In this document: piece by piece, positions 1,105 to 21,765 of the stretch
How the letters are laid out: every line of letters begins with the position of its first letter
Numbering within the stretch: the stretch's first letter is position 1
IMG/VR virus record: IMGVR_UViG_3300042198_000296
Coordinates: 1-22,930 of that record
Length of the DNA stretch: 22,930 nt
Reading direction: 5' to 3' (one strand)
DNA from: a virus
Program-made: the position numbers and the translations under genes
The notes under the pieces: generated by a model
What the model was told of the DNA's origin: nothing
The model's database searches: none
What the model saw: only the letters and a program-made list of their open reading frames with translations

Positions 1105-1364
1105 CCTTGGGCGAGCTGATCGTGGCGGTGGACGACGAGTGCGCGACGCCGCTGGAGCGCGCGGCCGTGCTGGTGGATTTGCTGGAATCGCGGATGGTGC
1201 GGAGCAGTCCGCCGCTGCGCGTAGTGTGGCGCGCGTGCGTGGAGTGCCGGAAATATCGCGCGGCATTCACCTCGGGCCTGTGCGTGTGGTGCAACGTGGA
1301 AATGGATCCGTATCCGGGGCTGGAGGACGTGGGCGAGCGGATGCCGGCGGAGGAAGCGGTATGA
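1101..1364 (+). CDS. Small zinc-ribbon-like phage protein
   Basis: An 87-residue protein starting at ATG 1101, which overlaps the previous stop by ATGA. The N-terminal half is predicted helical (LGELIVAVDDECATPLERAAVLVDLLE). The C-terminal half holds two CxxC pairs (CVEC and CVWC, about 15 residues apart), the layout of a small treble-clef or zinc-ribbon fold that would bind one zinc ion. It ends by ATGA overlap with the primase gene, so a DNA- or primase-associated role is plausible but only inferred from context. No homologue was recognised. Confidence 0.6.
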   Translation: MTLGELIVAVDDECATPLERAAVLVDLLESRMVRSSPPLRVVWRACVECRKYRAAFTSGLCVWCNVEMDPYPGLEDVGERMPAEEAV

Positions 1365-2482
1365 GCTACGACCTCGAGGCCATTCGGGAAAAGGTGTCGA
1401 TGCTGGAGCTGCTGGCGGCGGATGGCATCGCGGTGCGGCGCACGGGGGCGCGCTGGTTCTGCGCGTGCCCGTTTCATGCGGAGAAAACGGCGAGCATGGT
1501 GATCGCGGAGCGCACCGGGCTCTTCAAGTGCTTCGGGTGCGGGGCTGGCGGCAAAGGCTCGGGCATCAAGGGCGACGTCTTCGGCTATTGGATGGCGACG
1601 CGGGGCGTGGAGTTTCACGCTGCGGCAACGGCGCTGGCGCGGATGGCGGGGACGGGCGAGCTGCCCGATGGGTCGAGGATGCCGGCGCGGAAGATCGTGG
1701 AAGCGGCGGCGCCGGTGCGGCCGGCGGCGCTGGCCGGGCGCGATTTGGAGAATTGGCTCGAAGGCGTGGAGTATCTGCGCGAGTCGGAGGGCGAGCACGC
1801 ACGGCTCGCCGAGTGGCGGGGCTATTCGCGGGACACGATCGCGCTGTTGCTCGAGCGCGGGGCCATTGGTCAGCCGATCTACTCCGGCAAACGTGCGTGG
1901 GCCTTCGCGGTTGAGGCGATGAATGACGATGGCACGCGCTTCCTCTGCGGCTGGCATGTTCGGGTGGAGCCAAAAGGCGGCGAGAAGAAAGCGAGCTGGC
2001 GGTTCGTGCCGGGATCGAGCGAGACGCAGCCGAGCATTGGCGCATGGCCGATGGTGCTGGGAGATCCGGCGACGGCGCGGGCGCTGATCTTCACCGAGGG
2101 CGAATGGGACTTGGCCGCGGCGGCGGACCTGATGGCGTGGGGACTGTCGGACAGGACGAAGCGCGTCGCCATCTTCGGCATACGGGGCGGGCGCAATCTC
2201 GCGCACACGCTGGGTTATCAATGGCCCGCGGAAGCGCAGGCTTTCCTTTTCCCGGACGCAGACGAGACGGGCGGGAGCTGGCTGGAGCCCGATGGGTTGG
2301 CCGCGCTCATCAAGCCGCGCGTGCGGGCGCTGCACGCCTTCACCTTCGATGGGTGCAAGGACTTGAACGACTACCACAAGAGCCGTGGCACGGCGCAGCG
2401 CGAGCAGTGGGCGCACTTTTTCCGCGAGAATTTCAAAGCAGGGCTGAGACGCCGCAAACGCAGAAAACCAAAAGCCAAATGA
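1361..2482 (+). CDS. Phage DNA primase (CHC2 zinc finger plus Toprim)
   Basis: This 373-residue protein would make RNA primers for phage DNA replication. The N-terminal CHC2 zinc site is clear: CPFH at residues 36-39 and CFGC at 57-60, followed by a glycine-rich turn and GDVFGYW, as in DnaG-type zinc domains. A Toprim-like domain follows in the C-terminal half, with the acidic glutamate in FTEGEWD (about residue 245), the acidic pair in FPDADETG (about 298-300) and a KDLNDY motif near 333, typical of phage primase-like proteins. The end is very basic (RRRKRRKPKAK). The start at 1361 is chosen because it overlaps the upstream stop (ATGA); an upstream in-frame ATG at 1139 would lie fully inside the previous gene. 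It pairs with the SF3 helicase at 3030-4427. Confidence 0.85.
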   Translation: MSYDLEAIREKVSMLELLAADGIAVRRTGARWFCACPFHAEKTASMVIAERTGLFKCFGCGAGGKGSGIKGDVFGYWMATRGVEFHAAATALARMAGTGELPDGSRMPARKIVEAAAPVRPAALAGRDLENWLEGVEYLRESEGEHARLAEWRGYSRDTIALLLERGAIGQPIYSGKRAWAFAVEAMNDDGTRFLCGWHVRVEPKGGEKKASWRFVPGSSETQPSIGAWPMVLGDPATARALIFTEGEWDLAAAADLMAWGLSDRTKRVAIFGIRGGRNLAHTLGYQWPAEAQAFLFPDADETGGSWLEPDGLAALIKPRVRALHAFTFDGCKDLNDYHKSRGTAQREQWAHFFRENFKAGLRRRKRRKPKAK

Positions 2483-2796
2483 CCACTCTTCGCCACTACT
2501 GGGGCAACGGAAGATATAGGGATGGCAAGCCCTACGACGCCCAACTTACGCCGGACGACATCAAGGAGATGCAGACCATTGATGCGGACTGCAACGACTG
2601 CATCCACTTCCGCAGGGGCGCCTTGATCAAGGTGCCTGGACTGAAGCTGTTCGAGGGCCACTGCCTCAAGCTCGACAGGCCCACGAGAGCCTACCCCACG
2701 CAGTATACCGGCCGTGCCTGCTTTGAACACAGACGCACACCCGCTTCAACCAATCAAAGCAAGGAGCTAGCATGCGCGAGCAACTGCCCCAGCTAG
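2479..2796 (+). CDS. Small cysteine-rich phage protein
   Basis: A 105-residue protein whose ATG overlaps the primase stop (ATGA at 2479-2482). It contains CNDC, then a later isolated cysteine (GHCLKL) and a final one (RACFEH), a C4 or C3H arrangement that could coordinate zinc. The section around the cysteines (DADCNDCIHFRRG) resembles short uncharacterised proteins seen next to phage primases. No enzymatic motif is visible. Its 3' end overlaps the next gene by 25 bp. Function unknown. Confidence 0.6.
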   Translation: MTTLRHYWGNGRYRDGKPYDAQLTPDDIKEMQTIDADCNDCIHFRRGALIKVPGLKLFEGHCLKLDRPTRAYPTQYTGRACFEHRRTPASTNQSKELACASNCPS

Positions 2797-3026
2797 CTGA
2801 CGGGCTTTTCCAGATCGGCAAGGGGCCGACGTCGCTCTGGCTCTACGTGCGGGATGGCGTGCTCTATCTTCCAACCAAGGGGCTCGATCCGGTGGGGTGG
2901 CTGGGCCGCACCGTGATGATGGTCAATGGCCGCCCCTTCCTGCGAGCACGCGAGGTGGTGGAGATAGATCCAAAGCAGCGGGAATACGTGGAAGCCTTTT
3001 GCGCGGCACGCCGTCTCAAACTCTGA
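2772..3026 (+). CDS. Small phage protein, 84 residues, unknown function
   Basis: Starts at ATG 2772 behind AAGGAG (2760-2765), a strong ribosome binding site lying inside the end of the upstream gene, and ends 3 bp before the helicase gene. The 84-residue product has alternating strand and turn character (SLWLYVRDGVLYLPTKG, then GRTVMMVNGRPFLRAREVVEI) and a basic helical tail. No family was recognised. Its place between primase and helicase suggests a replication accessory role, which is inference. Confidence 0.6.
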   Translation: MREQLPQLADGLFQIGKGPTSLWLYVRDGVLYLPTKGLDPVGWLGRTVMMVNGRPFLRAREVVEIDPKQREYVEAFCAARRLKL

Positions 3027-3029
3027 CCT

Positions 3030-4427
3030 ATGGCTGAACAACCGAACATGGAGCGCCTGCCCGGCGCGGGCGGGCTGGGCTTCGAGGAGGAGCTGTGGGT
3101 GCAGAAGTTTCTGCGCAAGGTGCCGCTGCGCACCAAGGGCACGGATTGGTATGTCCACAACGCCAAGGCATGGAGCAGCGTGGAGAGCGAGCGGTTTCAT
3201 CCGGTGGCGAAAATGCTGCTGCCGCGCGGGCAGCGCAGCGTGAAGAACATCATGGCGATCATCGCCGGCGCGCAGGCCGACCGGCAGCTCCGCGAGGGCG
3301 AGGAGTTTGTGGGCGCGATGGTCATGGACCGGGAGACGCGCACGGTTTTTGTGAACTGCCAGAACGGGGTGCTGAAGGTGTCAAAGGAGTGCGTGGAGCT
3401 GATGCCACATGATCAAATGGTGCAGAACACGCGCGATGGGTCGGGGCGGCTGTTCATGGCCTGCCTGGATGCGGAGTGGCGCGGGGAATGGACAGCGGGC
3501 ATGGCTCCGCTTTTTATGAAGACGCTGTGGGAGGCTCTACCCGATGCCCAGGACCGCGCGCTGCAACAATGGTTCTCGGGCTACATCCTCTACCCGGCCT
3601 GCGAGCACGAGGTTTGTCTGATCTCCTACGGGGATGCAGGCACGGGCAAGAGCACGATCTCGGACGCGGTGATGGCGGTGATCGGGGGCTCGCCGCTCAA
3701 GACGGTGCTTTCGCTCGCGCAACTCTGCGCCGAGGGGCAGGGCGGTTATTCGCTGCCGTCACTGCAATACGCGTGCGTGAACATGGGCACGGAGCTGGAC
3801 ACCGTGGACATGAAGGACAGCTCGAACGTAAAGCGGTTCGTCTCGGGGGAGCCCGTGGAAGTGCGCTCGATCTACGGAAAGCCGTTCCCGATGCTCTCGC
3901 ATGTGAAGCTGTGGTTCAACTCGAACTCGCTGCCGCGCTTCAAGAACGGCACGGACGCCGAGCTGCGGCGCGTGCGCTTCCTGCGGTTCAGCCAAAAGGT
4001 CGCGGAGCAGGACAAGGATCGCGGGCTCAAGGCGAAGCTCGTGGAGGAGCGGAACGGCGTGCTTTCGTGGATGATCGAGGCGTTGCAAGCCATCCTCGGA
4101 GGCATGACGTGCCCGCTGGGTGGCAAGGACAGCAACGAGATCAAGACGCGCTTTGCCCTGGCCAATGATCCGGTGGGAGCGTTCTGCGATCAGTGCTGCG
4201 TGTTCGGGCCGGGGCACGAAGAGACAAAGGAGGCCATCTATGCCGCGTTCTCAGATTTCATGGGCGGGCACGGCTTCGCGGTGAAGACGAAGGATGCGTT
4301 GTTCCGCAGGTTCTATGAGCGCAACCCGCATGTGGAGGTTGATCGTCGGAAGGCAGGGGAGGAACGGGTGTATTGGCTCAAAGGCGTGAGTTTGCGTAAA
4401 GAAGCCGCTGCTGTTGCTGTGGCTTAA
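3030..4427 (+). CDS. Phage SF3 helicase, D5/P4-like primase C-terminal type
   Basis: This 465-residue protein is a replicative superfamily 3 helicase of the poxvirus D5/phage P4 type. Walker A is GDAGTGKST at residues 201-209. A Walker B-like stretch (YACVNMGTELD) follows near 247-257. Motif C is KLWFNSNSLP (293-302) with the sensor asparagine, and the arginines of ELRRVRFLRF (311-320) are arginine-finger candidates. The C-terminal 90 residues form a basic winged-helix-like tail (GHGFAVKTKDALFRRFYERNP). No N-terminal AEP primase catalytic motif was seen, so priming is presumably done by the separate CHC2 primase upstream. It is the last gene of the + strand replication operon; a hairpin terminator begins inside its stop codon. 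Confidence 0.88.
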   Translation: MAEQPNMERLPGAGGLGFEEELWVQKFLRKVPLRTKGTDWYVHNAKAWSSVESERFHPVAKMLLPRGQRSVKNIMAIIAGAQADRQLREGEEFVGAMVMDRETRTVFVNCQNGVLKVSKECVELMPHDQMVQNTRDGSGRLFMACLDAEWRGEWTAGMAPLFMKTLWEALPDAQDRALQQWFSGYILYPACEHEVCLISYGDAGTGKSTISDAVMAVIGGSPLKTVLSLAQLCAEGQGGYSLPSLQYACVNMGTELDTVDMKDSSNVKRFVSGEPVEVRSIYGKPFPMLSHVKLWFNSNSLPRFKNGTDAELRRVRFLRFSQKVAEQDKDRGLKAKLVEERNGVLSWMIEALQAILGGMTCPLGGKDSNEIKTRFALANDPVGAFCDQCCVFGPGHEETKEAIYAAFSDFMGGHGFAVKTKDALFRRFYERNPHVEVDRRKAGEERVYWLKGVSLRKEAAAVAVA

Positions 4428-4447
4428 AAACGGGATTCCCCGTTTTT
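4426..4447. terminator. Hairpin terminator after the SF3 helicase
   Basis: A perfect 9-bp stem, AAAAACGGG paired with CCCGTTTTT around a 4-base ATTC loop, begins inside the helicase stop codon. The right arm ends in a run of T on the + strand, and the left arm would give T on the - strand, so it can act in both directions. It closes the replication operon. Confidence 0.8.
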
Positions 4448-4477
4448 AGCGGTGTGCCCACTCTGTGTGAGGGGTGC

Positions 4478-4508
4478 GCTCTTTCGCACTTTCTTGGGGC
4501 GAAAGAGC
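4478..4508. repeat. 10-bp inverted repeat (hairpin)
   Basis: GCTCTTTCGC (4478-4487) and GCGAAAGAGC (4499-4508) pair perfectly around an 11-base loop. It is not followed by a T-run on the + strand, so it is not an obvious terminator. It may belong to the origin-like repeat cluster. Confidence 0.65.
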
Positions 4509-4621
4509 AAGGCGTTACTCTGGAGAGATGGCGCGCTTTCGCGTGCTCTTGCGGCTCTGGTTTGGAAGGTGGGCAGATTTCGGCGAGCGATCTACTCTGG
4601 AAATGGCGGTGATCTGGAGCC

Positions 4622-4715
4622 GCGTGCCCACCTTGCCTACCCTATTCCTGTACGTTCCAACCTGTGCGCGCTACGCGGAGCTGGTATGGAAACATGGTAG
4701 GCAAGGTGGGCACGC
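4622..4715. repeat. 20-bp perfect inverted repeat with structured spacer
   Basis: GCGTGCCCACCTTGCCTACC at 4622-4641 is the exact reverse complement of 4696-4715. The 54-base spacer contains a second, imperfect pair (GTTCCAACC against GGTATGGAAAC), so the whole 94 bp could fold into a long stem with one asymmetric internal loop. Partial copies of the GTGCCCAC / GTGGGCA core occur at about 4454-4461 and 4568-4574. The repeat could be an origin structure, a binding site for a dimeric protein or a structured RNA. Confidence 0.75.
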
Positions 4716-4835
4716 CCAAAAAATCAACCACCATGGTCAAAGGAATCTTTTTCCGCCTGGGAGCATGAGAGGTTGCCAACCGCCCCCATCCCGAGGCTGT
4801 AGAACATTCAAAAAACGAATGTCCCCTTTCGGGTA

Positions 4836-4899
4836 GGTCGCGCCTGCCTCGCGACCCGCCTCGCGGACATGTCGCCTCGGATGTCGCGCGGTTGACATC
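4836..4899. promoter_or_regulatory. Small inverted repeats just upstream of terminase small subunit
   Basis: GGTCGCG/CGCGACC form a stem-loop at 4836-4856 (7-bp arms, 7-base loop). GACATGTC is a palindrome at 4866-4873. GATGTC (4880-4885) and GACATC (4894-4899) form an 8-base-spaced inverted repeat, and TTGACA at 4892-4897 is a possible -35 box with no convincing -10 at proper distance. Together they could be operators for the late promoter. Only the repeats themselves are seen. Confidence 0.35.
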
Positions 4900-4911
4900 G
4901 GTAGTCGCGGT

Positions 4912-5532
4912 ATGAGCAACGACGACACCGAAAAATCCGAAAAATCGCGACATTCGGCTCTACCGGGGGAAGAGCGCGAGATTGATCCCGAATGGGCCGA
5001 TAGCCAGGCGGCTATCGCCGAGTTGTTAGACGTGGCGCCGAAGACCATCCAGCGCTGGCTCAAAAAGCCGGGCAACCCCGGTTGCGATGAGGCTGGCCGC
5101 TACAAGATCGCGCCCTGGCAGTCGTTCGCCGTGGCCGTGGGGCGCAAGACGCGCTCACCCGACAAGGCGGGCGCGGAACTGGAGGCGATTTTGCTGAAAA
5201 ACGAGCGGACTCGACTCGACATGGAAAAAGAGCAGGGCCGTCTGCTGTCCTTCCAGGAAGTGGCCGAGTTGCTCGCCTCAATGGGCCACGCCTTCACGCA
5301 GCGGCTCGCCGGCGCGCGTCATTCCCTCGGCCCGCTGGTCGTGGGCCTCACCGTTCCCGAAGCCACCAAGCGCATCGGCACCGAACATCTCGCTGCGCTC
5401 GCCGAAGTGTCCGTGCCCGATTGGGCTAAAAAAAAAGTGGGACCGGCTGGGCTTTTTTGGTCGAGAGTATCGCGGCTTCTCTCCGACCTCCGGCCCATCG
5501 CGAGCCCTGGCGCTGGGCTGAAGAGCACGTAA
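4912..5532 (+). CDS. Phage terminase small subunit (Nu1-like)
   Basis: A 206-residue protein that would recognise phage DNA and recruit the large terminase. Residues about 31-51 (DSQAAIAELLDVAPKTIQRWLK) form a helix-turn-helix of the type found in lambda Nu1 and relatives. A charged helix (EAILLKNERTRLDMEKEQGRLL) about residues 90-111 matches the coiled-coil dimerisation segment of that family. The ATG at 4912 is the first start after the upstream stops. The last third is odd: after VPDWAKKK, encoded by a run of nine A, the frame continues for about 32 residues overlapping the large-subunit gene and looks unlike the rest. The natural end, or a -1 frame change, may lie at the A-run. Confidence 0.8.
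   Translation: MSNDDTEKSEKSRHSALPGEEREIDPEWADSQAAIAELLDVAPKTIQRWLKKPGNPGCDEAGRYKIAPWQSFAVAVGRKTRSPDKAGAELEAILLKNERTRLDMEKEQGRLLSFQEVAELLASMGHAFTQRLAGARHSLGPLVVGLTVPEATKRIGTEHLAALAEVSVPDWAKKKVGPAGLFWSRVSRLLSDLRPIASPGAGLKST
5428..5436 (+). other. A9 homopolymer (possible slippery site) at the terminase subunit junction
   Basis: Nine consecutive A at 5428-5436 are read AAA AAA AAA in the small-subunit frame. A -1 slip here would enter the large-subunit frame, which is open from 5430 through the TTG at 5457 and beyond, giving a fused product. The large-subunit frame has a TAA immediately before (5427-5429), so that frame cannot be extended further upstream without a slip. Whether the slip occurs is unknown. 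Confidence 0.5.
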
Positions 5533-7298
5533 TCATCCCGTCCTCCGCCGTCGGCGAAAGATGGGATTCCACCGAATCGGTTTTCGTCCGCGAAATCATG
5601 GAGGCGTTCGCCGACGAGGGCATCAACGAGATCGCCGCCATGTGCAGCGCGCAGAGCGCGAAAACCCTCACCATCCTCTGCTGCCTGCTCTGGGCCATCT
5701 GCGAAGACCCCGGCCCGATCCTCTGGGTCACGGCCGACCGCCAGGAAGCCGTCAAATTGGTGAAGGGCCGCCTCATCCCCATGATGGAGCGCTGCGGTCC
5801 GGTCTGGGCGCGCGTGCCCAAGGAGCGCGGCAAGCGCAACACCCTCGAAATCTACTTCCCCGGCGCGCCGCTCATCATCACCGGCGCGAAATCGCCCGCG
5901 TCCCTGCAGTCCACGCCCTTCCGCTACATCCTCCTCGATGAAGTCCGCTCCTACCCGCCCGGCGCGCTCGAGATGGTCGAAAAGCGCACCCGCGCCTACC
6001 CGCACAACTACAAGAAAATCATCATCTCCACTCCCGACGCGGAGAACGACGCCCTCCACGCCGCGTTCATCAAGGGCGACCAGCGCCATTTCCTCGCCGA
6101 GCTGCCTTGCGGCCATTTGCAGGAGCTGGAGTGGAAGGACAAAAACGAAAAGGGCGGGCTCAAGTGGGACTCGATCAAGAACGCCGAGGGCGTGCGCGAT
6201 CTCGAAGCCATCCGTCGCACCGTGCGCTACGAGTGCGCCGAATGTGGCGCCACGACGCCCGGCCTGCTCACCCACCGCAAGCACATCGCCTCGCATGGCC
6301 GCTGGGAGCGCCGCAACCCCACCGCGCCGAGCAACTGCGCCTCCTTCACCTGGGGCGCGCTGCTCCCGTGGTGGACCGATTGGGGCGCGCAGGTTGTCGA
6401 ATACCTCAGCGCCCTCCGCCGCCTCGATTGGGGCGACCACGAGCCGCTGAAGAGCTTCACCAACGAAACGCAGGGCCGTCCCTGGACGGATCTCCTGCGC
6501 TACATGAAGCACGACAAATATGTCCGCGACCGCGAGCTGGACTACGACCCGACCGCGCCGTGGCCGCTCGAACGCGAACGCTTCGCCACCGTGGACGTCC
6601 AGGCCAGCGGCGGCCGTCATTACTACCTCGTCATCCGCGCGTGGGGCATGGGCGGCGTCTCCCGCCAGCTCTTTCAGGCCAAAGTCGGCCCCGGCACCGA
6701 GAGCTACGCCAATCTCCTCGCCCTCTGCGAGACGTGGCGCGTGCCGCGGCACAACATCGCCTTCGATGTCGGCACCTTCCAAAGCGAACTGTTCACGCAG
6801 ATCATGGAAGGCGGCTCCCTGCCCAATGGCGACTACGCCATGAAGGCGCTGTGGGGCGATGACCGCCCGTATTTCCTCATCGACGGCGAGCGCCACCTGT
6901 GGACGGTCGCGCCCACCGACCCCTACCTCGGGCGCAAGGCCCAGGGTTTCATCCGCCCGATCAACGTCATCCGATGGAGCAAGCCGGGCGTGCAGGACAA
7001 GCTCAACTTCTTCATGCACGGCTACGGCGAAACCGACTGGCGCATCCTGCCCACCGCCGATCAGGATTATCGCAAACAGGTCACCGCCTGGGACCGCCGC
7101 GAATTCACCGACGCCCGCGGCGCCCGCCGCACGGAATGGTGGTGCCCGCAGGGCCGGCCCGATCACTACTACTCCTGCGAACTCATGCAGATCGCCTGCG
7201 CCAGCGCCCGCGGTCTGCTCAGCGTCCCGCGCGAAGTTGGCCCGCTCTTCCAGCACGCGGCCGCGCACATCGACCTCGCCGTGTCACGAGGGGCATAA
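5457..7298 (+). CDS. Phage terminase large subunit (GpA family)
   Basis: This 613-residue protein is the packaging ATPase-nuclease. The N-terminus matches GpA proteins (LRPPAHREPWRWAEEHVIIP). A deviant Walker A is CSAQSAKT at residues 63-70 with Lys69, and Walker B is ILLDE at 158-162. Cysteines in PCGH and YECAECG (218, 260, 263) form a zinc-ribbon candidate. The nuclease domain begins at FATVDVQ with Asp380, and the family's late RPDHYYSCE-type motif is near the end. Length is close to lambda gpA (641). No ATG or GTG precedes the conserved region, so the start is TTG 5457 or a -1 frameshift product from the small subunit, with which it overlaps by 76 bp. The gene ends 3 bp before a converging foreign gene; portal and head genes that normally follow are missing. 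Confidence 0.88.
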   Translation: MVESIAASLRPPAHREPWRWAEEHVIIPSSAVGERWDSTESVFVREIMEAFADEGINEIAAMCSAQSAKTLTILCCLLWAICEDPGPILWVTADRQEAVKLVKGRLIPMMERCGPVWARVPKERGKRNTLEIYFPGAPLIITGAKSPASLQSTPFRYILLDEVRSYPPGALEMVEKRTRAYPHNYKKIIISTPDAENDALHAAFIKGDQRHFLAELPCGHLQELEWKDKNEKGGLKWDSIKNAEGVRDLEAIRRTVRYECAECGATTPGLLTHRKHIASHGRWERRNPTAPSNCASFTWGALLPWWTDWGAQVVEYLSALRRLDWGDHEPLKSFTNETQGRPWTDLLRYMKHDKYVRDRELDYDPTAPWPLERERFATVDVQASGGRHYYLVIRAWGMGGVSRQLFQAKVGPGTESYANLLALCETWRVPRHNIAFDVGTFQSELFTQIMEGGSLPNGDYAMKALWGDDRPYFLIDGERHLWTVAPTDPYLGRKAQGFIRPINVIRWSKPGVQDKLNFFMHGYGETDWRILPTADQDYRKQVTAWDRREFTDARGARRTEWWCPQGRPDHYYSCELMQIACASARGLLSVPREVGPLFQHAAAHIDLAVSRGA

Positions 7299-7520: not shown

Positions 7521-8129
7521 TCATTTCTTCTTGAGCCACGCGCGCCCGGCATCCGAGATTTCCCACACGCCGGTGGGTGAGCCCTTTTTCATTCGTCCGT
7601 CTTCATTCACCATTTGGTTTCGTGCCCATTGGGCCGTGTTTCGCCAGCGAATTTGTTTCGCATCGGACTCGTGAGGCTCGTAGTCCTTCGGCTTTAGGAT
7701 GCCTTTCATCTTCTCGCCCATTCGGTCGATGACGTCCTTTGTCTTTCCGCGTCCGCCCATCTCCACGAGCGTTTCGAGAATGGGGCGGCAATAATCGGCT
7801 TGTGGCGTGATGTCACCGCTCGATTTGCGCCCGAAGAAGCGTTTGCTGACAATTTGCTGCACTTCGAGGGAGGCTTTGTCGCGGAGGCTCTCCAATTCGG
7901 TCCATTCTGCGCCGAGACCCTCGACCCGGCTGCGGAACGCCAGCAGCCGTTTGGCGAAGTCGAGCACGCCCTCCGCTGTGGAATAGTCGCCGGTCTTCAT
8001 CGCCTTGGCTCCCTCGTCATTGATGCGCTGGGCCTCCTCGGCTAGAGTGTCACGGAGCAGATTGAGCGCAGCGCCCACGTCGTTCGTCGAGTCGGATGCA
8101 AAGTGGAGAAGTTTGAGTTGCTTGTTCAT
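7521..8129 (-). CDS. Mrr-type N-terminal winged-helix protein lacking a nuclease domain
   Basis: A 202-residue protein with two parts. Residues 1-90 are helical and probably coiled (NLLRDTLAEEAQRINDEGAKAMKTG... LLAFRSRVEGL). Residues about 113-202 match the winged-helix domain found at the N-terminus of Mrr restriction enzymes: CRPILETLVEMGGRGKTKDVIDRMGEKMKGILKPKDYE, then RWRNTAQWARNQMV, then GVWEISDAGRAWLKKK. In Mrr that domain contacts DNA and is followed by a PD-(D/E)xK nuclease; here the protein ends at the winged helix, so it is probably a DNA- or modification-reading regulator or specificity partner. It is in an operon with the HTH gene and in the same orientation as the methyltransferase-helicase pair, but is separated from it by the capsid relic. 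No strong ribosome binding site was seen before 8129. Confidence 0.7.
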   Translation of the reverse strand: MNKQLKLLHFASDSTNDVGAALNLLRDTLAEEAQRINDEGAKAMKTGDYSTAEGVLDFAKRLLAFRSRVEGLGAEWTELESLRDKASLEVQQIVSKRFFGRKSSGDITPQADYCRPILETLVEMGGRGKTKDVIDRMGEKMKGILKPKDYEPHESDAKQIRWRNTAQWARNQMVNEDGRMKKGSPTGVWEISDAGRAWLKKK

Positions 8130-8204
8130 GATGACCGCTGGAGTTGGCCGCGATTTGCTGCGCCAACAAACTTTGCCCGAAACCTTCTTGATGATCGAGC
8201 CGAA

Positions 8205-8440
8205 CTTTTCTCGGGACGAACATCGGCAAGGGCATGACCGACGACCTCGCTTTCGAGGCGCTGGCGAAGTTCCCGGCCGGAGTCGCTCCCGACTACTGCT
8301 TCATGAATCGCCGCGCGCTGGAGCAGCTCCGCCGCAGCCGCACGAAGGTCACGAGCCCGACGGGCGTTCCCACTCTGCCGGACAACGTGGCCGGCATCCC
8401 GATTGTCATCACCGACTCGCTGCGGAACGACGAGGTTTAG
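8205..8440 (+). pseudogene. Phage major capsid protein, C-terminal fragment
   Basis: On the + strand the frame reads LGTNIGKGMTDDLAFEAL, KFPAGVAPDYCFMNRRALEQLRR, SRTKVTSPTGVPTLP and GIPIVITDSLRNDEV. This is the pattern of the C-terminal part of a phage major capsid protein family, where a (M)TDD, FPAG..PD, MNR.(A/S)L..L..SRT, (P)T...GIPI..TDS series is usual. The N-terminal two thirds are absent: an in-frame TGA lies just upstream (near 8195) and the flanking DNA belongs to the winged-helix gene. The fragment ends at a TAG (8438-8440) where the methyltransferase-side sequence begins, a few residues short of a normal C-terminus. It is the scar of a phage head gene broken by the island. The left limit is approximate. 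Confidence 0.7.
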
Positions 8441-11400
8441 CTACTGCGTCCCCGCGAATTGTAGTTCTGTCTTTGTCACTGAGGCCGTATAGCCCGAATA
8501 CTTCCTCATCCAAGGCTTCCATCAACGATGCGAGGCGCTTCTCGTCAGCAGCGTTCACCTCTGGCCCCGTTCGCTCACGCAACGCCGTAAGTTCTTTCGC
8601 GGTGCGGAGTAACTCTCGTGACACAAAAGAACTAGGAATAGGGATCTCACCTACGTTAGTCGGCGAAAAGTTAATGCCGCCATCCATTGCGAGAGCGCTG
8701 TAGCACTCCCTGAGGAAAAATCGCGCGAGCTGCGAGTTGAGTATTCCGAGCAAACAATACCATTCGTCTTCACCAGCAATTCCGCGGATAACGACCGTGG
8801 ACTTCCCCGCAACGACCTCGCCATTCAAGTCTAGGATTGATTCGAAATGCCGCATTCCTGAGATGATAATCTTTGCCGAAGACATCTGAGTATAGCGTCT
8901 TGGAAACATCGCTTTGAATGCCGCTTTCTCGAGAACGGGGCACATGTATTTCGTCTTGAGGTATGTGGTCTGCGAGTAGCCCCAAAGCGAGTAGAACGGC
9001 TCGATAGTCCCTGTATTGATAAACCGGAACGCTCCTTTCATCCGGCGGTCGTCTTGAAGTAGTTCGGTAAGCTTATATGCTTCGCCCACCGTAAACGCTT
9101 CCTCCAAAGAACACAGGTTCCTAAGGGGCGTGTGTTCTGCCAAGAGCTTTGAAATCAGCGGCAAATGCTGGCTCAGCACGGCACCCCAACTCGACATCTC
9201 TGCAAAAGCCGTACGCGGCAACGATGTCGAAAAAATTTGTTCGTGGCCGTCGGAGAACCGTGCCATGTCCATCGTTGCCTTGCTTCGAGGCGATGCGAAT
9301 TGGACGACTGGAAACACACCAACGTTCTCGAACGCGCGAAAACGCGAGTAGTCGGCAATCCCGTAAATCATGTCCTTGGCAAAGGCGCGATATGCTTGCC
9401 CATAGCTGATCGCCAACCACTTGTTTGGGGTGATCAGACAGCTCGTGCCTTGGCGAGATAGCTTCGCTAACGAAAGTTCCAAGAAAGGGATGTATAGATC
9501 CCAGTTGCCCTTTGTCGTCGAGAATCTTGCCCCGATTGCCGTGCGAACTTCTGGTTGCTCCCGCACCATGACTTCGGAATCGACGTAAGGCGGATTGGCA
9601 ATCATGACATCGAATCCTCCTCGGGTGCGGAAAACCTCTGAGAAGTAAATCTCGAAGTCGAAGCTGACTTCGTAGCCAAGGCTGCTCTTGGACGCAGCGA
9701 ACGCTTGCGCCAGTTCGGAATCGATCTCGCGCTTGAGCTTCCGTTTTTTGTCGTGGTCGGTTTCGTCGAAGTATTCGGCCTTGAGCTTTTCGATCTTTTG
9801 CACGCGCTGGGATTTGAACGGGAAGCCGAGCAGGGAGTTTCCGACGACGATCTTGTAGTCGAGGTTGGGCAGTGGCTTGATCTGCTGCACGTCGTCCTCA
9901 TCTACGACGAGCGAGAGCCACAGGCGCAGCTTGGCGATCTCGACGGCACCGGGATCGATGTCCACGCCGTGAATTGAGCTTTGGATGACGTGGCGCTTGA
10001 AGTGGTAGGCCGTGCGTTCGGCCACGTCGTTGAAGTAGGGCGTGAGCGCCATGCGAGCGCGCACGATTTCCGTCATCATGCCGACCGGGAACGCGCCGGA
10101 GCCGATGGCGGGATCGCAAACAGTGATGTCGCGCAGGAGGGCATCAATCTCGCGCGCGAACTTGCGGATGGAGTCAGGTGGCTTGGGATAGTTGTCGCCG
10201 CGCGTCCCGGCGGCGATGGCCGCCGTGTAGTGGGCGAACTGGTCGCTCTGCCGAATCCAGACTTCCAAATCCTTCCGGGCTACGAGGACTCGCTGCCGGG
10301 CATCGGTGAACTCCCCCTGCGTAGGCCGTGCCTTGGGCTTTTCCGATGAGTCGCTGAAAAGCGGTGGCTGCTGGTCGGGCTGAGGCGTCGCGGCACCGAT
10401 TGGCGCGACCGGGCTGTTGAGTCCGGTGTCGAGGTAGTTGATGAGGCTCTCCTGACACATGAAGTGAACGATCTCGCGCGGCGTGTAGAATGCTCCGAGC
10501 CCCTTGCGGCGGTTTTCTTCGATGAGGTTCTCGAAGACCTTTCCTAGCATCTCAGGGTCAATGGCGACTTCCTGCTCCAGCGGCTCGGCTTCGTTGACCG
10601 TGAAGTTGTAGCGGTCGAAGACATCAAGGATGCCGGTGCCGACATCGCCGACGTCGCTGCGGGTCGTGTTGGCGAAGAGCGCGTTGGGCAGGTCGATGTC
10701 GGTCTTTTTCCACTCGTAGCCGGCGAGCGGCTCGAACAGGCCGCCGTTCAGGAACGGGATGCGGCAGGCAAAGATTTTGCACCACGCCGCGTGTCCGCGA
10801 TCGGTGGCGAGCGTGTCGTAGAACAGCGGTTCGAGCACGTCGTTGAAGAGGCACTTCTTTTCACCGATGGCGCGGTTGGCGAGCTGACGCAGAAAATTGC
10901 GGGGCCCGTTACCCCAGTTCCCGCCTTTAGCCACGCCGAGCCATCCCTTCTTTTGGATGAAGTAGAGAAAGACGATCTGGCCGAGCAGCTTCTTGGCGAA
11001 GTCGATGGTGGTAACACCCTTTTCCTTGAAGTCGTCGCGGATGGCTTTCTCGCGCCTCACCACGGCCGCGAGCGCATCATTGGTGTCCTCGAAGAGCCGC
11101 ACATACTCGCGGAAGAATTCTTTGGTGACAGATTCGACGCTGAACGCTTCCTCGATGTCTGCGAGCGTCGGCTTGTCGTCGGTGTTTTGCAGCAACGCGA
11201 GAAAGCGGCTCTGTGCGGTGTGACATTCCTCGTCCGCGCCGACGAGGTAGGAGTAGCGCCGCGCCGGGGTGAGACGTTCCTCGGGCTTGATCTTGCCGGT
11301 GCGCGGATCGCGCTTTGTCTCGTATTCCATGCGGACATACGAGAAGCGCCAGGCTTGCGAATCGGGCGCGACGAACGCGACGAGGCCGGCTTCCTTGTAG

Positions 11401-11708
11401 CTCTCATCGCGCTTGAGCTTGTGGGCGACGAAATCGCGCAGCGCGGTTCGAGTGCGCTCCAGCTTGAAGGATTCAGTGAGCTGCACCACAAGCACGTCCG
11501 TCAGCTCGCCGTCGGGAGATTCAAACGTGCCGAGCCGCTGGCAGCTTTTGATGTGCAGCGCGAAAGCGTCCGGCACGCCCATCGAGGGAATCGCCTTTGA
11601 TTCATCAATGCCGTTGCAAAGTTCGTTGATGAAGTCGCGGTAGCGTTTTCTGTCGAACGGCGCCTTGAAGGTGTCGCGGACGATGCGTTGAGCAGTGGTC
11701 TTGTCCAT
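8409..11708 (-). CDS. Eco57I-like adenine-N6 DNA methyltransferase (type IIG/DrmMI-like architecture)
   Basis: This 1099-residue protein should methylate adenine in a specific DNA sequence using S-adenosylmethionine. Residues 1-230 are a poorly characterised N-terminal domain (ELTDVLVVQLTESFKLERTRTALRDF) with no clear PD-(D/E)xK catalytic set. A helical domain follows, then GAFYTPREIVHFMC (405-418), SAM motif I DPAIGSGAF (532-540), GVDIDPGAVEIAKLRLWLSL (581-600) and catalytic NPPY (705-708). Residues about 720-1075 should hold the target recognition domain. The gene starts 3 bp after the helicase stop, so the two are translationally coupled. The final 12 or so residues (AVAKPRRSAASR) are antisense of the capsid relic, which supplies the stop. 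The recognition half is visibly lower in GC than the catalytic half. A self-contained type IIG enzyme is less likely because no nuclease motif is visible. Confidence 0.85.
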   Translation of the reverse strand: MDKTTAQRIVRDTFKAPFDRKRYRDFINELCNGIDESKAIPSMGVPDAFALHIKSCQRLGTFESPDGELTDVLVVQLTESFKLERTRTALRDFVAHKLKRDESYKEAGLVAFVAPDSQAWRFSYVRMEYETKRDPRTGKIKPEERLTPARRYSYLVGADEECHTAQSRFLALLQNTDDKPTLADIEEAFSVESVTKEFFREYVRLFEDTNDALAAVVRREKAIRDDFKEKGVTTIDFAKKLLGQIVFLYFIQKKGWLGVAKGGNWGNGPRNFLRQLANRAIGEKKCLFNDVLEPLFYDTLATDRGHAAWCKIFACRIPFLNGGLFEPLAGYEWKKTDIDLPNALFANTTRSDVGDVGTGILDVFDRYNFTVNEAEPLEQEVAIDPEMLGKVFENLIEENRRKGLGAFYTPREIVHFMCQESLINYLDTGLNSPVAPIGAATPQPDQQPPLFSDSSEKPKARPTQGEFTDARQRVLVARKDLEVWIRQSDQFAHYTAAIAAGTRGDNYPKPPDSIRKFAREIDALLRDITVCDPAIGSGAFPVGMMTEIVRARMALTPYFNDVAERTAYHFKRHVIQSSIHGVDIDPGAVEIAKLRLWLSLVVDEDDVQQIKPLPNLDYKIVVGNSLLGFPFKSQRVQKIEKLKAEYFDETDHDKKRKLKREIDSELAQAFAASKSSLGYEVSFDFEIYFSEVFRTRGGFDVMIANPPYVDSEVMVREQPEVRTAIGARFSTTKGNWDLYIPFLELSLAKLSRQGTSCLITPNKWLAISYGQAYRAFAKDMIYGIADYSRFRAFENVGVFPVVQFASPRSKATMDMARFSDGHEQIFSTSLPRTAFAEMSSWGAVLSQHLPLISKLLAEHTPLRNLCSLEEAFTVGEAYKLTELLQDDRRMKGAFRFINTGTIEPFYSLWGYSQTTYLKTKYMCPVLEKAAFKAMFPRRYTQMSSAKIIISGMRHFESILDLNGEVVAGKSTVVIRGIAGEDEWYCLLGILNSQLARFFLRECYSALAMDGGINFSPTNVGEIPIPSSFVSRELLRTAKELTALRERTGPEVNAADEKRLASLMEALDEEVFGLYGLSDKDRTTIRGDAVAKPRRSAASR

Positions 11709-11711
11709 GGG

Positions 11712-14700
11712 CTAGGGAAGGTAGGAAGAAAGGATGACTTCGCGCGGTGCGAGTGGCGCATCCTTGTCGGGTTTGTGCGCCGCGCCCACAAGATACTGGC
11801 GGGCGATGTCCTTGTGGAGAATGGCGAGCATCGCCACGGGATCGTCGGTCTTGTCGAACGCCTCCTTCACCTTGCGGATTGTGGCCTTGCCCACGCGGCC
11901 GTCGGCGATGATCTGATGCACGGCAGCGCCGAATTTTCGCTCCTCCGGCGTGAGCACGTCGGCGTTGCGAAAGCTGCGGGCGCGGAGCCGCTTCAAGATG
12001 ATGGCCTCGTTGCCACCGCCCGCCGCGGTCGAGGGAAGCAGCGTCTCGACGCTCGGCGTGGTCGCAGTCGCAAAGCCGTCCTTGTTCTTGTCGAGCAGCG
12101 GATAGAACTGCTCGGGCGGGATCTCGCGCCGCTTCTCGCTGGCGGTGGTTTCGAGCGTCTCGGCGGTGGTGAAGAAGTCGAGTTCCTCGGCGCGCTCGAT
12201 GTCGGCGTGGGAGCGGAAAAATTTGTCGAGCCGGTCCTGGCGGAAGTAGCTGATGACGGCGGGGCGATCCGGGCGCGGCGTGACCGCATCGGGATGTTCT
12301 GCCGGCCCCGGCTCCGGCGCGTGGAAGCGCGTCGAGCGGGCCTTGCGCGGCAGCGCGAGGATGCGCTGGAAAAGCTCCGGCTGCTTCTCCTTCACGTCGA
12401 GAATCTGGCGCAGATATTTCAGCTCGCTCTTTTGCTCCTCCCCGCCGCCTTCCGCCGACTCCTTCGAGTTGATGCGGTCGAAAAGATTGTGCGACGTGAT
12501 TTGCTCGTCGCCGGTGAGCAGGCGCGCGTCATTGCCGAGCAGCGAGATGAACGCGGCGATCTTCGACTTGGCCGACTCGGTGAGGGCGATCTGGTCGTTG
12601 CCCTCATCGGTCGGGAAGAAGTTGTAGGTGGAGATGGTTTTGAATTTCGTGCCGACGCGGTTCACCCGTCCGACGCGCTGCATCATGCGGCTCGGGTTCC
12701 AAGGGATGTCGTAGTTGATGACCGTGGCCGAGCGATGAAGGTTCACGCCTTCCGCGAGGACATCGGTGGTGATGAGGATGCGATAGTCATCGAGCGGCTC
12801 TTTCTTGTTCGCATCGAAGTTCGCGATGACCTCGCGCCGCAGCTCGGGGCTGGATGTCGAGCTGAAGAGCAGCGTCTCCGGCTCGACTTCCTTTTTGATC
12901 TTCTCCGCGAGATAGCGCGCGGTGTCGGCGAACTCGGTGAAGATGATGAGCTTCCCCTTAGCGAGCGTGGTGGTGAGCTGGCGCTTGAACTCGATCCACT
13001 TCGGGTCGCGCTTGATCGCCTTCCACGAGGTCTGAATCTGGCGCAGCGTCGCGAGGTCGGAGGCGACGTGCTTGCGGAAGTCGGGCGTGAATTTTCCCGC
13101 GTCGAACTCCTCGGCTTTTTCCTGCGCGATGAGATCGGCGATGGCGTCGTCGTCGCCTTCCTCCAGGAATTCGAGCACCTTGTTGCTGTGCTTGCGGCTC
13201 GTATAAACGGAGCCGTCGTCGAACGCCTGCAATACGAGTTCGTGGGACTTGATGAAGCGCGCGAGCGTTTCCTGAAATGCGTGGAAGCTGCTTTCCAGCC
13301 GCTTCACGAGCAGGATTTTCATGAAGGTGGCGAGGTTGCGCTGGCCCTGCACGGCGCGCTCTTCCATCGGCCCGGTGTAGTATTCGGGATTGAGCGGCTG
13401 GTAGCGGGCGTAGTGGAAATCGGTGCTGGTGATGCACTCCAGCGTGTCGGTGAAGACGGCGCTTTCCGCGCGGCTGAGCTGGTAGAGCAGCGGCACGGGA
13501 TCGCTGACCTTCGGAAACCAAATCTTCTGCTTCTTGAGGTCGTCGCCGTAGAACTCCTCAATTTCCCTGCGCGTGCGGCGCACCATGATGTATTTGAGCA
13601 CGCGCTCGCGCAGCTCGTGGGCGTTTTCCTCGATCGCGGCGACGTATTGCTCGGCGTCGTCGAGCCGATGGAACGGCTTGAGGCGATTGCGCAGCTTGTC
13701 GAAAAATGCCTCCAGATTGCGGAGTCCTGGGATGGTGCTGTTGCGCGGCGGCTGGAACAACTTCAACTGGCTGTAGATGTCGTCGAGCGTGTTGTTGTAG
13801 GGCGTGGCGGAGACGAGGATGACGCCCTTGCCCTGGCAGATGCGCGTGAGGTGTTCGTATCGCTGTGTGGAGTCGCCTTTGAAGCGGTGCGACTCGTCGA
13901 TGAACACGTATTTGTAAAACTCGACGCCTTGGTCGATGACCTCTTCGAGCTTGCCGATCGATACGCACTTGTGGCCGGGGATGCAGAAGTCGCGGAAGAC
14001 GCGCGGCCACGAGCCGGGGCTGTTTTCATCGAGCAAACTCGGCGGCGCGATGATGAGGCAGCGGCCATCGAGTTGCAGCGCGAGCAGCGCGGAGATGAAG
14101 GTTTTGCCGAGGCCAACGACATCGGCAATGAAGACGCCGCCGTAGGTCTTGAGCATCTGCAGCGCGGTGAAGACGGCATCCTCCTGGTAGCTGAGCTTCT
14201 TGAAATTCTGCGGCAGATTTTCCGCGTTCAGCTTCGTGCGGTCGCCGAGGTAGTCGCGGAAGTATTCGGCAAGGAACTTGAGGTAGAGTTCGTAGGGCGA
14301 GAAGAACGCGAACGGCGATTCCTTTTCCACGGCATCGAGGATCGTCTCGTGAACGTCCTTCACATCCACGGCGTCCTTCCACAGCTCGTTGAAGCGGTGC
14401 AGCGCGTAGTCGTGGTCCTCCGGTTCCGCGAGCAGCACGTTGAACTCGAGGTTTCCTTCGAGGCCGCTGTGCGAAAAGTTGCTCGACCCGGTGATGACGT
14501 AGCCGTGGTTCACGCTCTCCAGCGGATGCTCCGGCGTCATGATATAGACCTTCGCGTGGATGTTCTGCTCGCGGTAGAGCTTCACCTCCAGCTTGCCCGA
14601 GCGAATCCACTCGATGAACTTCCGCACGCCCGTCTCGATGGCGAGTGTGTCCTTCGCCTGGACGAGTTCCTTTTTCATCATGCCGCCGAAGATCGTCTTG

Positions 14701-15566
14701 ATCTCCGCCGTGGAGGGCGCGCCTTCGCCTTCGCCGTCGTTGGCGATCTGCATGAGCCCGTGGACGACGTGCTCGTTTTTTAGCCCGATGAGGATGCGGA
14801 TTTTCTTGATGGTTTCGAGCGACGGATAGAGCCGAAAAAAGCCGCTGATGAAAAAATATCCGACGAGACAATCGAAGTCCTGCATCAGCGGCAGAATTTT
14901 CTCCAGCCGCTTGCTCAGCGTGTTCTCGCCTTGATTGGTGAGAAACTTTTTCGGTGCAATGGGAATCGACTGAAACGCAGTTGGGTCTCGTGCTCCGGCA
15001 CTTGGCGTGGGGGGGATCGCTTTAACGCCGAGTAGTTCGAAATCGTCAACGAAGGCCGCTAGCAGTGGGTCTTTCGTTTTGAAGCCTGCAAGAATCTTTT
15101 CCGCCGCCATTCTTGTAGTTCGCACTACAATCTTACTGCTGTTGGCCTGCTCTACTGAAACAGTCTCAACTTCTCCGGGTCTGCCTGTATAGGCGGCCAA
15201 ACAGGATGCGAGTTCGGGAGCGCGCTGGCACATTTCGGCGACCTCTTTCTTCACTAGGATTTCGAGAAGCTGGACGAGATGCGCGTTTGTTCCTTCAGGG
15301 GCGTTGCTTTTCCGGGCCAAGATGCACGGGTTTTTTTTGTATTCCCGGAGCACGGAAACGCCCCATTTTTCTCCATCCGCCCGGGTGTGGCAGCCTGCAC
15401 AGAGGGCAACCAGGTTTGCGACGCTATGCACATGGCTCTTGCTCCAGGGAATGACATGCGCTTGTTCCAGCGGAAGGCCATTGCAGCAGACGGCGCAGTG
15501 GTGGCGTGCTTCAAAGAGGACTTCGCGGCGAATCGCGATGGGAATTGCCGGGCGATTTTGGCTCAT
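11712..15566 (-). CDS. HNH-PLD-SNF2 helicase fusion (restriction-like effector)
   Basis: A 1284-residue multidomain protein. Residues 20-62 are an HNH nuclease: CAVC (24-27), His37 in QAHVIP, Asn51 in VANL, CAGCH (56-60). Residues 90-200 are a linker of unknown fold. About 226-400 is a PLD-type nuclease with one H-x-K motif (His337, Lys339 in IHAKVYIM) and the following GSSNFS (360-365). An SF2/SNF2 helicase follows: Q motif LSYQ (458-461), Walker A GLGKT (485-489), Walker B DESH (557-560), SAT (586-588), motif V TTDVLAEGVNLH (933-944), motif VI QRVGRVNRVG (963-972). The C-terminal 200 residues include a Pro-rich linker and no known domain. It would translocate on DNA using ATP and cut with HNH and/or PLD sites. 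It is coupled to the methyltransferase gene (3-bp gap), arguing for one system. No clear ribosome binding site precedes 15566. Confidence 0.85.
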   Translation of the reverse strand: MSQNRPAIPIAIRREVLFEARHHCAVCCNGLPLEQAHVIPWSKSHVHSVANLVALCAGCHTRADGEKWGVSVLREYKKNPCILARKSNAPEGTNAHLVQLLEILVKKEVAEMCQRAPELASCLAAYTGRPGEVETVSVEQANSSKIVVRTTRMAAEKILAGFKTKDPLLAAFVDDFELLGVKAIPPTPSAGARDPTAFQSIPIAPKKFLTNQGENTLSKRLEKILPLMQDFDCLVGYFFISGFFRLYPSLETIKKIRILIGLKNEHVVHGLMQIANDGEGEGAPSTAEIKTIFGGMMKKELVQAKDTLAIETGVRKFIEWIRSGKLEVKLYREQNIHAKVYIMTPEHPLESVNHGYVITGSSNFSHSGLEGNLEFNVLLAEPEDHDYALHRFNELWKDAVDVKDVHETILDAVEKESPFAFFSPYELYLKFLAEYFRDYLGDRTKLNAENLPQNFKKLSYQEDAVFTALQMLKTYGGVFIADVVGLGKTFISALLALQLDGRCLIIAPPSLLDENSPGSWPRVFRDFCIPGHKCVSIGKLEEVIDQGVEFYKYVFIDESHRFKGDSTQRYEHLTRICQGKGVILVSATPYNNTLDDIYSQLKLFQPPRNSTIPGLRNLEAFFDKLRNRLKPFHRLDDAEQYVAAIEENAHELRERVLKYIMVRRTRREIEEFYGDDLKKQKIWFPKVSDPVPLLYQLSRAESAVFTDTLECITSTDFHYARYQPLNPEYYTGPMEERAVQGQRNLATFMKILLVKRLESSFHAFQETLARFIKSHELVLQAFDDGSVYTSRKHSNKVLEFLEEGDDDAIADLIAQEKAEEFDAGKFTPDFRKHVASDLATLRQIQTSWKAIKRDPKWIEFKRQLTTTLAKGKLIIFTEFADTARYLAEKIKKEVEPETLLFSSTSSPELRREVIANFDANKKEPLDDYRILITTDVLAEGVNLHRSATVINYDIPWNPSRMMQRVGRVNRVGTKFKTISTYNFFPTDEGNDQIALTESAKSKIAAFISLLGNDARLLTGDEQITSHNLFDRINSKESAEGGGEEQKSELKYLRQILDVKEKQPELFQRILALPRKARSTRFHAPEPGPAEHPDAVTPRPDRPAVISYFRQDRLDKFFRSHADIERAEELDFFTTAETLETTASEKRREIPPEQFYPLLDKNKDGFATATTPSVETLLPSTAAGGGNEAIILKRLRARSFRNADVLTPEERKFGAAVHQIIADGRVGKATIRKVKEAFDKTDDPVAMLAILHKDIARQYLVGAAHKPDKDAPLAPREVILSSYLP

Positions 15567-21165: not shown

Positions 21166-21765
21166 ATGAAATCCCAATTGCTCCTGCTCCTTCCCCTGCT
21201 CGCCGCCGCCACGCCGGCCAGCCGGGCGGCCATCGTTTATAGCGGCGTGCAGGATTTCCCGATTCCGTTCGACCTCGAAGGTTCCTATCTCCGCATCGAC
21301 ACCGGGGCGACAGCCGGGGCACTCCCCGGTGGCTGGTCCACCGCGCCGTGGATCAACCCCTTTTTCGGCGGCGTGAAAATCGCCAACAGTCCGCTGCTGC
21401 GGCCCGTGATCACCGGTTCCTCCCAGATCCTCAACCTGGCCGTGGGCACCGTGATCGACGGCACGAGCAACTTTGTGGCGGGCGAAAGCGGTTCGGAAAC
21501 GCACTTCGGCATTGGGGTCGGACAGTTTGCCCTCAATGTCCCCGGCTACCTGGGCATCACCTTCCGCTCCACGGTGGGCGGGCCGGATCACTACGGCTGG
21601 ATCGAGGTGCAGGTCAGCAACGTCGGGCCGGGGAAGATCATCTCCTGGGCTTACGAGAACGTCAGCGCGGCCCCCATTCAGGTCGGTGCGGTCCCGGAGC
21701 CGGGATGCCTGGCGCTGCTTGGCTTGGCGAGCGCTGGATTCGGCTTGGGAAGGCGTCGGCGATAA
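21166..21765 (+). CDS. PEP-CTERM sorted exported protein
   Basis: A 199-residue protein with an N-terminal signal peptide (KSQLLLLLPLLAAATPASRA) and a C-terminal PEP-CTERM signal: VPEP, a hydrophobic helix (CLALLGLASAGFGLG) and the basic end RRRR. That signal directs recognition by an exosortase, with cleavage and attachment at the cell surface or in extracellular matrix. The 150 residues between are glycine- and serine-rich beta strands; the section ITFRSTVGGPDHYGWIEVQV resembles parts of other PEP-CTERM proteins of unknown function. It starts 24 bp after the repeat-protein stop, so the two form a likely operon. The exosortase itself is not in the window. Confidence 0.82.
   Translation: MKSQLLLLLPLLAAATPASRAAIVYSGVQDFPIPFDLEGSYLRIDTGATAGALPGGWSTAPWINPFFGGVKIANSPLLRPVITGSSQILNLAVGTVIDGTSNFVAGESGSETHFGIGVGQFALNVPGYLGITFRSTVGGPDHYGWIEVQVSNVGPGKIISWAYENVSAAPIQVGAVPEPGCLALLGLASAGFGLGRRRR

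Follow-up and report, generated by a model that had tools for sequence, protein, structure and literature searches.

Prophages and their satellites carry defence genes as cargo, the P2/P4 hotspots being a described example (PMC9122126). One recurrent defence gene pair consists of an Eco57I-type or PglX-like methyltransferase and an SNF2-PLD helicase, which PADLOC models as REase_MTase_IIG plus HKD+Snf2; its two-gene order is the same in most of the approximately 80 bacterial relatives that we fetched. A second family of concern here is the GP7-type major capsid protein (PF20911; PHROG 212), the intact members of which have 300-357 aa and end just past a conserved GIPIVITDS motif.

Here we analysed a virus-derived DNA of 22,930 nucleotides (IMG/VR record IMGVR_UViG_3300042198_000296, positions 1 to 22,930; hereafter the window), in which a helicase-methyltransferase operon abuts a piece of a GP7-type capsid gene. 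As in the P2/P4 hotspots, the defence operon adjoins phage packaging genes; the capsid piece, however, is a scar common to unrelated surroundings and not the flanking gene of a working hotspot. The operon has the gene order of the PADLOC pairs but differs from them in two respects, since its methyltransferase ends in a non-native tail read from the capsid antisense strand and its helicase carries an extra HNH domain at the N terminus. Similarly, the last 77 residues of the capsid align to the intact 300-357 aa proteins with 42-59% identity and stop at the natural terminus, whereas the front three-quarters of the gene (about 240 5′ codons), the start codon and the adjoining head genes are missing. 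The relevant features are as follows.

5457 to 7298, plus strand: terminase large subunit, gpA type (PF05876, E=4.4e-38)
7521 to 8129, minus strand: Mrr_N winged-helix protein, on the scar flank opposite the operon (PF14338, E=3.2e-13)
8195 to 8215, about 8205, no strand: 5′ break of the capsid gene (blastn and alignment)
8207 to 8440, plus strand: capsid remnant (scar), covering the 3′-terminal 77 codons of a gene for a GP7-type major capsid protein (tblastn relatives, ends of intact homologues)
8409 to 11708, minus strand: Eco57I-type (IIG-like) adenine methyltransferase, 1099 aa (PF07669, E=1.5e-31; PADLOC REase_MTase_IIG, E=1.4e-224)
8409 to 8450, minus strand: non-homologous C-terminal extension DAVAKPRRSAASR and stop of the methyltransferase (homologues end before the extension)
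8437 to 8443, minus strand: stops of the other two minus-strand frames, TAG at 8443-8441 and TAA at 8439-8437 (three-frame translation)
8441 to 9581, minus strand: target-recognition region of the methyltransferase, replaced in comparison with the related contig L095 (blastn match stops at 9582 and resumes at 8435)
11712 to 15566, minus strand: SNF2/PLD helicase, the conserved methyltransferase partner (profile matches, relatives)

Ends of the capsid remnant

The plus-strand frame reads FLGTNIGKGMTDD...GIPIVITDSLRNDEV*, and its terminal residues ITDSLRNDEV are followed by TAG at 8438-8440. A first-pass annotation of this DNA had described the 8205-8440 frame as capsid-like and as ending in NDEV and a TAG, and both descriptions hold. 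Relatives of the frame are encoded by 77 IMG/VR viral contigs (tblastn, identity up to 52%), and the “major head protein” of Akkermansia phage Chantilly covers 97% of its length with 42% identity (E=3e-10). An intact relative matches Pfam GP7 PF20911 (E=1.7e-9) and phrog_212 (E=4e-21), while the 77-aa fragment itself gave no Pfam or PHROG match in the profile search; its place in the GP7-type family is given by sequence similarity. Between stops the frame has 81 codons only, short of the 300-357 aa of a full-length capsid.

Where is the capsid gene broken? At the 5′ side, homology begins near 8207-8211, as indicated by alignment and by blastn (8211 against L095 and 8209 against the viral contig L065). 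At the 3′ side, the stop codon lies 6-13 residues past TDS/TDA in 73 of 79 distinct intact C-termini (for example, ...DSILNDEVLS-stop and ...DSIINAE-stop), and in the window, L095 and L065 it lies 9 residues past this motif in each case. Because intact capsids stop at the equivalent place, the gene ends naturally with the TAG at 8438. Judged from these alignments, the gene is broken near 8205, on its 5′ side, and has its natural 3′ end; what is left is a remnant and not a working gene. The earlier picture of a capsid gene broken at the join, cut by a defence island at 8436-8442, is therefore not supported: the missing part is the 5′ three-quarters, and intact relatives end at that very place by their own stop codon.

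The methyltransferase tail and its helicase partner

The methyltransferase gene and the capsid remnant lie tail-to-tail. The methyltransferase has an Eco57I catalytic domain (PF07669) with ANPPY (the NPPY motif) in its translation, and its match to the TaqI-like specificity domain PF12950 scores 16.9 bits, below the 26.5 cut-off. As had been noticed at first pass, its frame crosses the capsid stop; it adds ...GDAVAKPRRSAASR and terminates at 8411-8409 in the capsid antisense, of which bases 8409-8437 (29 bases) lie within the frame. Homology to other methyltransferases ends at residue 1077-1087 of 1099, about position 8453, so that the two homologies do end together, as was expected, within about 15 bases of each other. 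Full-length homologues bear unrelated tails of 0-17 aa shortly past a common helix (EVFGLYGLSDKD in the window), and the last 13 residues of the window protein are not common to them. Since the tails beyond this helix are unrelated, DAVAKPRRSAASR is not native, in agreement with the first reading.

How was the stop codon lost? The TAG at 8443-8441 touches the capsid TAG, and the TAA at 8439-8437 overlaps it. With both out-of-frame stops at hand, one indel would account for the read-through; it would take no more than a change of one base upstream, such as in the GGGG tract (about 8449-8453), to bring the methyltransferase onto one of them. The read-through would thus most simply be a small slip, or a by-product of the replacement of the target-recognition part. 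The lost stop is a minor matter, and the tail taken from the capsid antisense is probably neutral.

The pair falls short of two named defence systems, as the methyltransferase scores 68.7 of 400 bits as PglX of BREX and the helicase 151.5 of 610 bits as DrmD of DISARM, both under the NCBIfam curated cut-offs. The N-terminal ~200 aa of the helicase (14957-15566, minus strand) form an HNH domain (IscB-type HNH model NF040563, E=7e-7). This domain is absent from the helicase relatives, whose similarity begins at about residue 202; it is apparently an HNH fusion to an SNF2-PLD helicase. The same helicase-methyltransferase pair is also found as phage cargo in another viral contig (L158, 6142-12767), where the neighbouring genes look Mu-like by eye (lysozyme, gp16-like and MuB-like).

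The same join in two other genomes

The join of operon and capsid 3′ end recurs in two further genomes, both represented by metagenome-assembled or draft contigs, so that it is known from three genomes only. L095 (JACCXJ010000043.1) is a bacterial contig of a metagenome-assembled genome titled Gammaproteobacteria. Its operon is 84.6% identical in nucleotide sequence to the window over 9582-14954 and is followed by the scar in antisense (81.5% over window 8211-8435; both blastn). The capsid piece carries a frameshift, and the methyltransferase ends at a TAG of its own that lies 5 nt before the capsid stop. The first-pass view that the native stop was necessarily lost at an insertion is thus not supported: with out-of-frame stops in place in the window, a later indel suffices. 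L242 (genome G602) belongs to the same class as the L095 genome and to a different order, according to the grouping of the search tool. It has the same arrangement, with decayed operon pieces (71-93% aa identity) and a scar (85% in nucleotide sequence at window 8283-8429) that has lost its stop frame.

L095 and L242 have in common the 3′ end of the methyltransferase, a GAGTAGC beside the scar, and the scar itself; GAGTAGC sits where the window has its other minus-frame stops (8437 to 8443). The window join aligns poorly to both across the last ~40 methyltransferase bases. The window and L095 have unrelated sequence at 8441-9581, but are 81-85% identical on either side of it, in the catalytic part and in the scar (blastn). 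In L242, a leftover tail of an older target-recognition domain (12984-13202), 79% identical to the 3′ end of the L095 methyltransferase, lies between a newer target-recognition domain and the capsid scar.

In contrast to the constant join, the 5′ break of the capsid differs among the three: it falls at residue ~2 in the window, further upstream in L095, and at residue ~22 in L242. A scar joined to the operon and eroding from its free end would be expected to give this pattern, with the join constant and the far break different in all three. Moreover, the occurrence of the join in two other genomes means that it predates the present surroundings of the window. Between the window and L095, divergence at third codon positions is 0.24 for the scar and 0.28-0.34 for the operon, and at 4-fold sites 0.34 and 0.28-0.39, respectively. 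The silent divergence of scar and operon is thus alike, which indicates about equal divergence times and fits co-inheritance. Within the scar, codon positions 1 and 2 changed half as often (18/150) as third positions (18/75); accordingly, the scar probably acquired some of its differences before the decay, or is still under some constraint. Fifteen further genomes with methyltransferase relatives were scanned, and no scar was seen in them.

Intact relatives and the search for an empty site

Most intact phages with a GP7-type capsid have a same-strand head or tail gene 0-60 nt past the capsid stop, and none of the intact phages examined showed defence genes there. We rejected the idea that GP7-type capsids are generally followed by a defence hotspot, as intact phages have normal head or tail genes at this place. 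We found no intact phage bearing the operon at its capsid stop. Nor did we find a true empty site: the intact capsid relatives are at most 59% identical, too distant to represent one. A terminase scan of IMG/VR returned no relative, and a 16-mer DNA scan of the same database gave noise as regards the scar. The best terminase relative from the Verrucomicrobia phylum (L239, 46%) has no nearby head genes and showed no empty site.

Origin of the join

We consider it likely that the capsid fragment is a decayed, inherited scar that belongs to the defence operon and stems from an ancestral phage with a GP7-type capsid and a convergent operon. Such a phage would have carried the helicase-methyltransferase operon as convergent cargo, with the 3′ end of the methyltransferase gene and the capsid's own stop codon a few bases apart. 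The ancestral lineage would have borne the operon while the capsid still worked, and separate decay in each line would have followed. The join would then have arisen once and passed, by descent or by transfer along with the operon, to several genomes; the capsid front would have been lost at a different point in each lineage, and the natural 3′ end beside the methyltransferase kept. The frame of the window methyltransferase may have been shifted off its stop by an indel, or by an exchange of the target-recognition domain, close to the 3′ end of the gene.

The first-pass annotation had instead proposed that this prophage acquired its defence island by insertion into the capsid gene, the join at 8436-8442 being the insertion point that cost the methyltransferase its stop. 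The terminase and capsid do share strand and order with their counterparts in intact relatives, and methyltransferase homology does stop about 15 bases from the capsid end. The capsid, however, ends naturally at the join, and the whole virus record holds one capsid match only: beyond the island, where the gene of a repeat-rich secreted-type protein lies, the capsid remainder is absent. The supposedly precise boundary of an insertion into a prophage is further contradicted by the same operon and capsid-3′ join in the two other genomes, and we regard the insertion as very unlikely. The underlying observation was real, the interpretation was only partly supported, and the mechanism was wrong. An assembly chimera, conceivable for a metagenome-derived virus record, is practically discounted by the recurrence of the join in two independent assemblies.

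Could the three joins be independent, with defence modules repeatedly landing, or breaks repeatedly falling, at the capsid 3′ end? L065 speaks for this. This viral contig carries a scar from that capsid family, shortened and with an internal deletion, which ends NSEE-stop and matches the window at 8209-8276 (blastn). The scar lies after an unrelated major head protein (phrog_283), the contig's own and of a different family, and directly before an unrelated C5-methyltransferase/HATPase/Mrr-helicase/Vsr module (L065, 2054-8466). Independent joins nevertheless appear unlikely, given that the intact phages examined have ordinary head or tail genes after the capsid, and that operon and scar in the window, L095 and L242 stand at equal silent divergence. 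L065 is also the one observation in favour of a portable boundary element, in which the ~230-bp capsid 3′ end would lie beside different defence modules (the helicase-methyltransferase operon in three genomes and the C5-methyltransferase module in L065) and serve as a homology arm for the exchange of modules or target-recognition domains. It shows that such scars can adjoin a different defence module, but we hold the element itself to be improbable. We give equally little credence to a 230-bp piece kept because it is useful, either as a homology arm for such swaps or as a non-coding element. The replaced target-recognition region between conserved flanks and the old tail retained beside the scar in L242 would suit this use. 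Against it, other methyltransferase relatives swap domains without any capsid piece, and the RNA fold at the join is ordinary (z 0.58 and 0.87); the antisense stretch of the scar at 8205-8300 gave z=-2.4 as one among four stretches tested. The relative with such a swap (L083, 12457-14972) possesses a second TaqI_C specificity domain in inverted orientation, together with 294-nt inverted repeats (85%) and a serine recombinase, an arrangement that constitutes an invertible target-recognition domain.

As an inherited scar, the join can neither date nor locate a defence-gene insertion in this prophage, which corrects a misleading reading of a precise-looking boundary. It indicates instead that a decayed phage structural gene can stay attached to a defence operon across genomes, and that such a scar may serve as a searchable trace of the phage-borne transfer of the operon. 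A capsid remnant fixed to a defence operon is ordinary in kind and mildly interesting as a transfer marker.

Surroundings of the scar

The left arm of the window (1139-7298) encodes a DnaG zinc-ribbon protein, a DUF5906 primase-helicase, and the small and large terminase subunits, without portal, intact capsid or tail genes, and is a satellite-like element or a decayed prophage. L239 likewise has a TerS/TerL pair (40-46%) without head genes nearby. The distance from the terminase to the end of the scar is 1.1 kb; in an intact relative such as L008, the ends of terminase and capsid lie about 3.9 kb apart. The portal-protease-capsid region has therefore been lost, even if the terminase and scar once belonged together.

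The Mrr_N gene between them is an independent module. Its relatives have no capsid or methyltransferase neighbour where inspected, and Mrr_N is absent from plasmids. In genome G242, neither gene occurs in the 3.5 kb inspected around the relative (61%), which has an AbiEii-like gene upstream, as identified by eye from the sequence.

The gene of the repeat-rich secreted-type protein, with choice-of-anchor-D/ASH domains, follows immediately after the helicase genes, at 18154-21141 on the plus strand, and is apparently a host gene. A PEP-CTERM motif occurs in the gene at 21166-21765.
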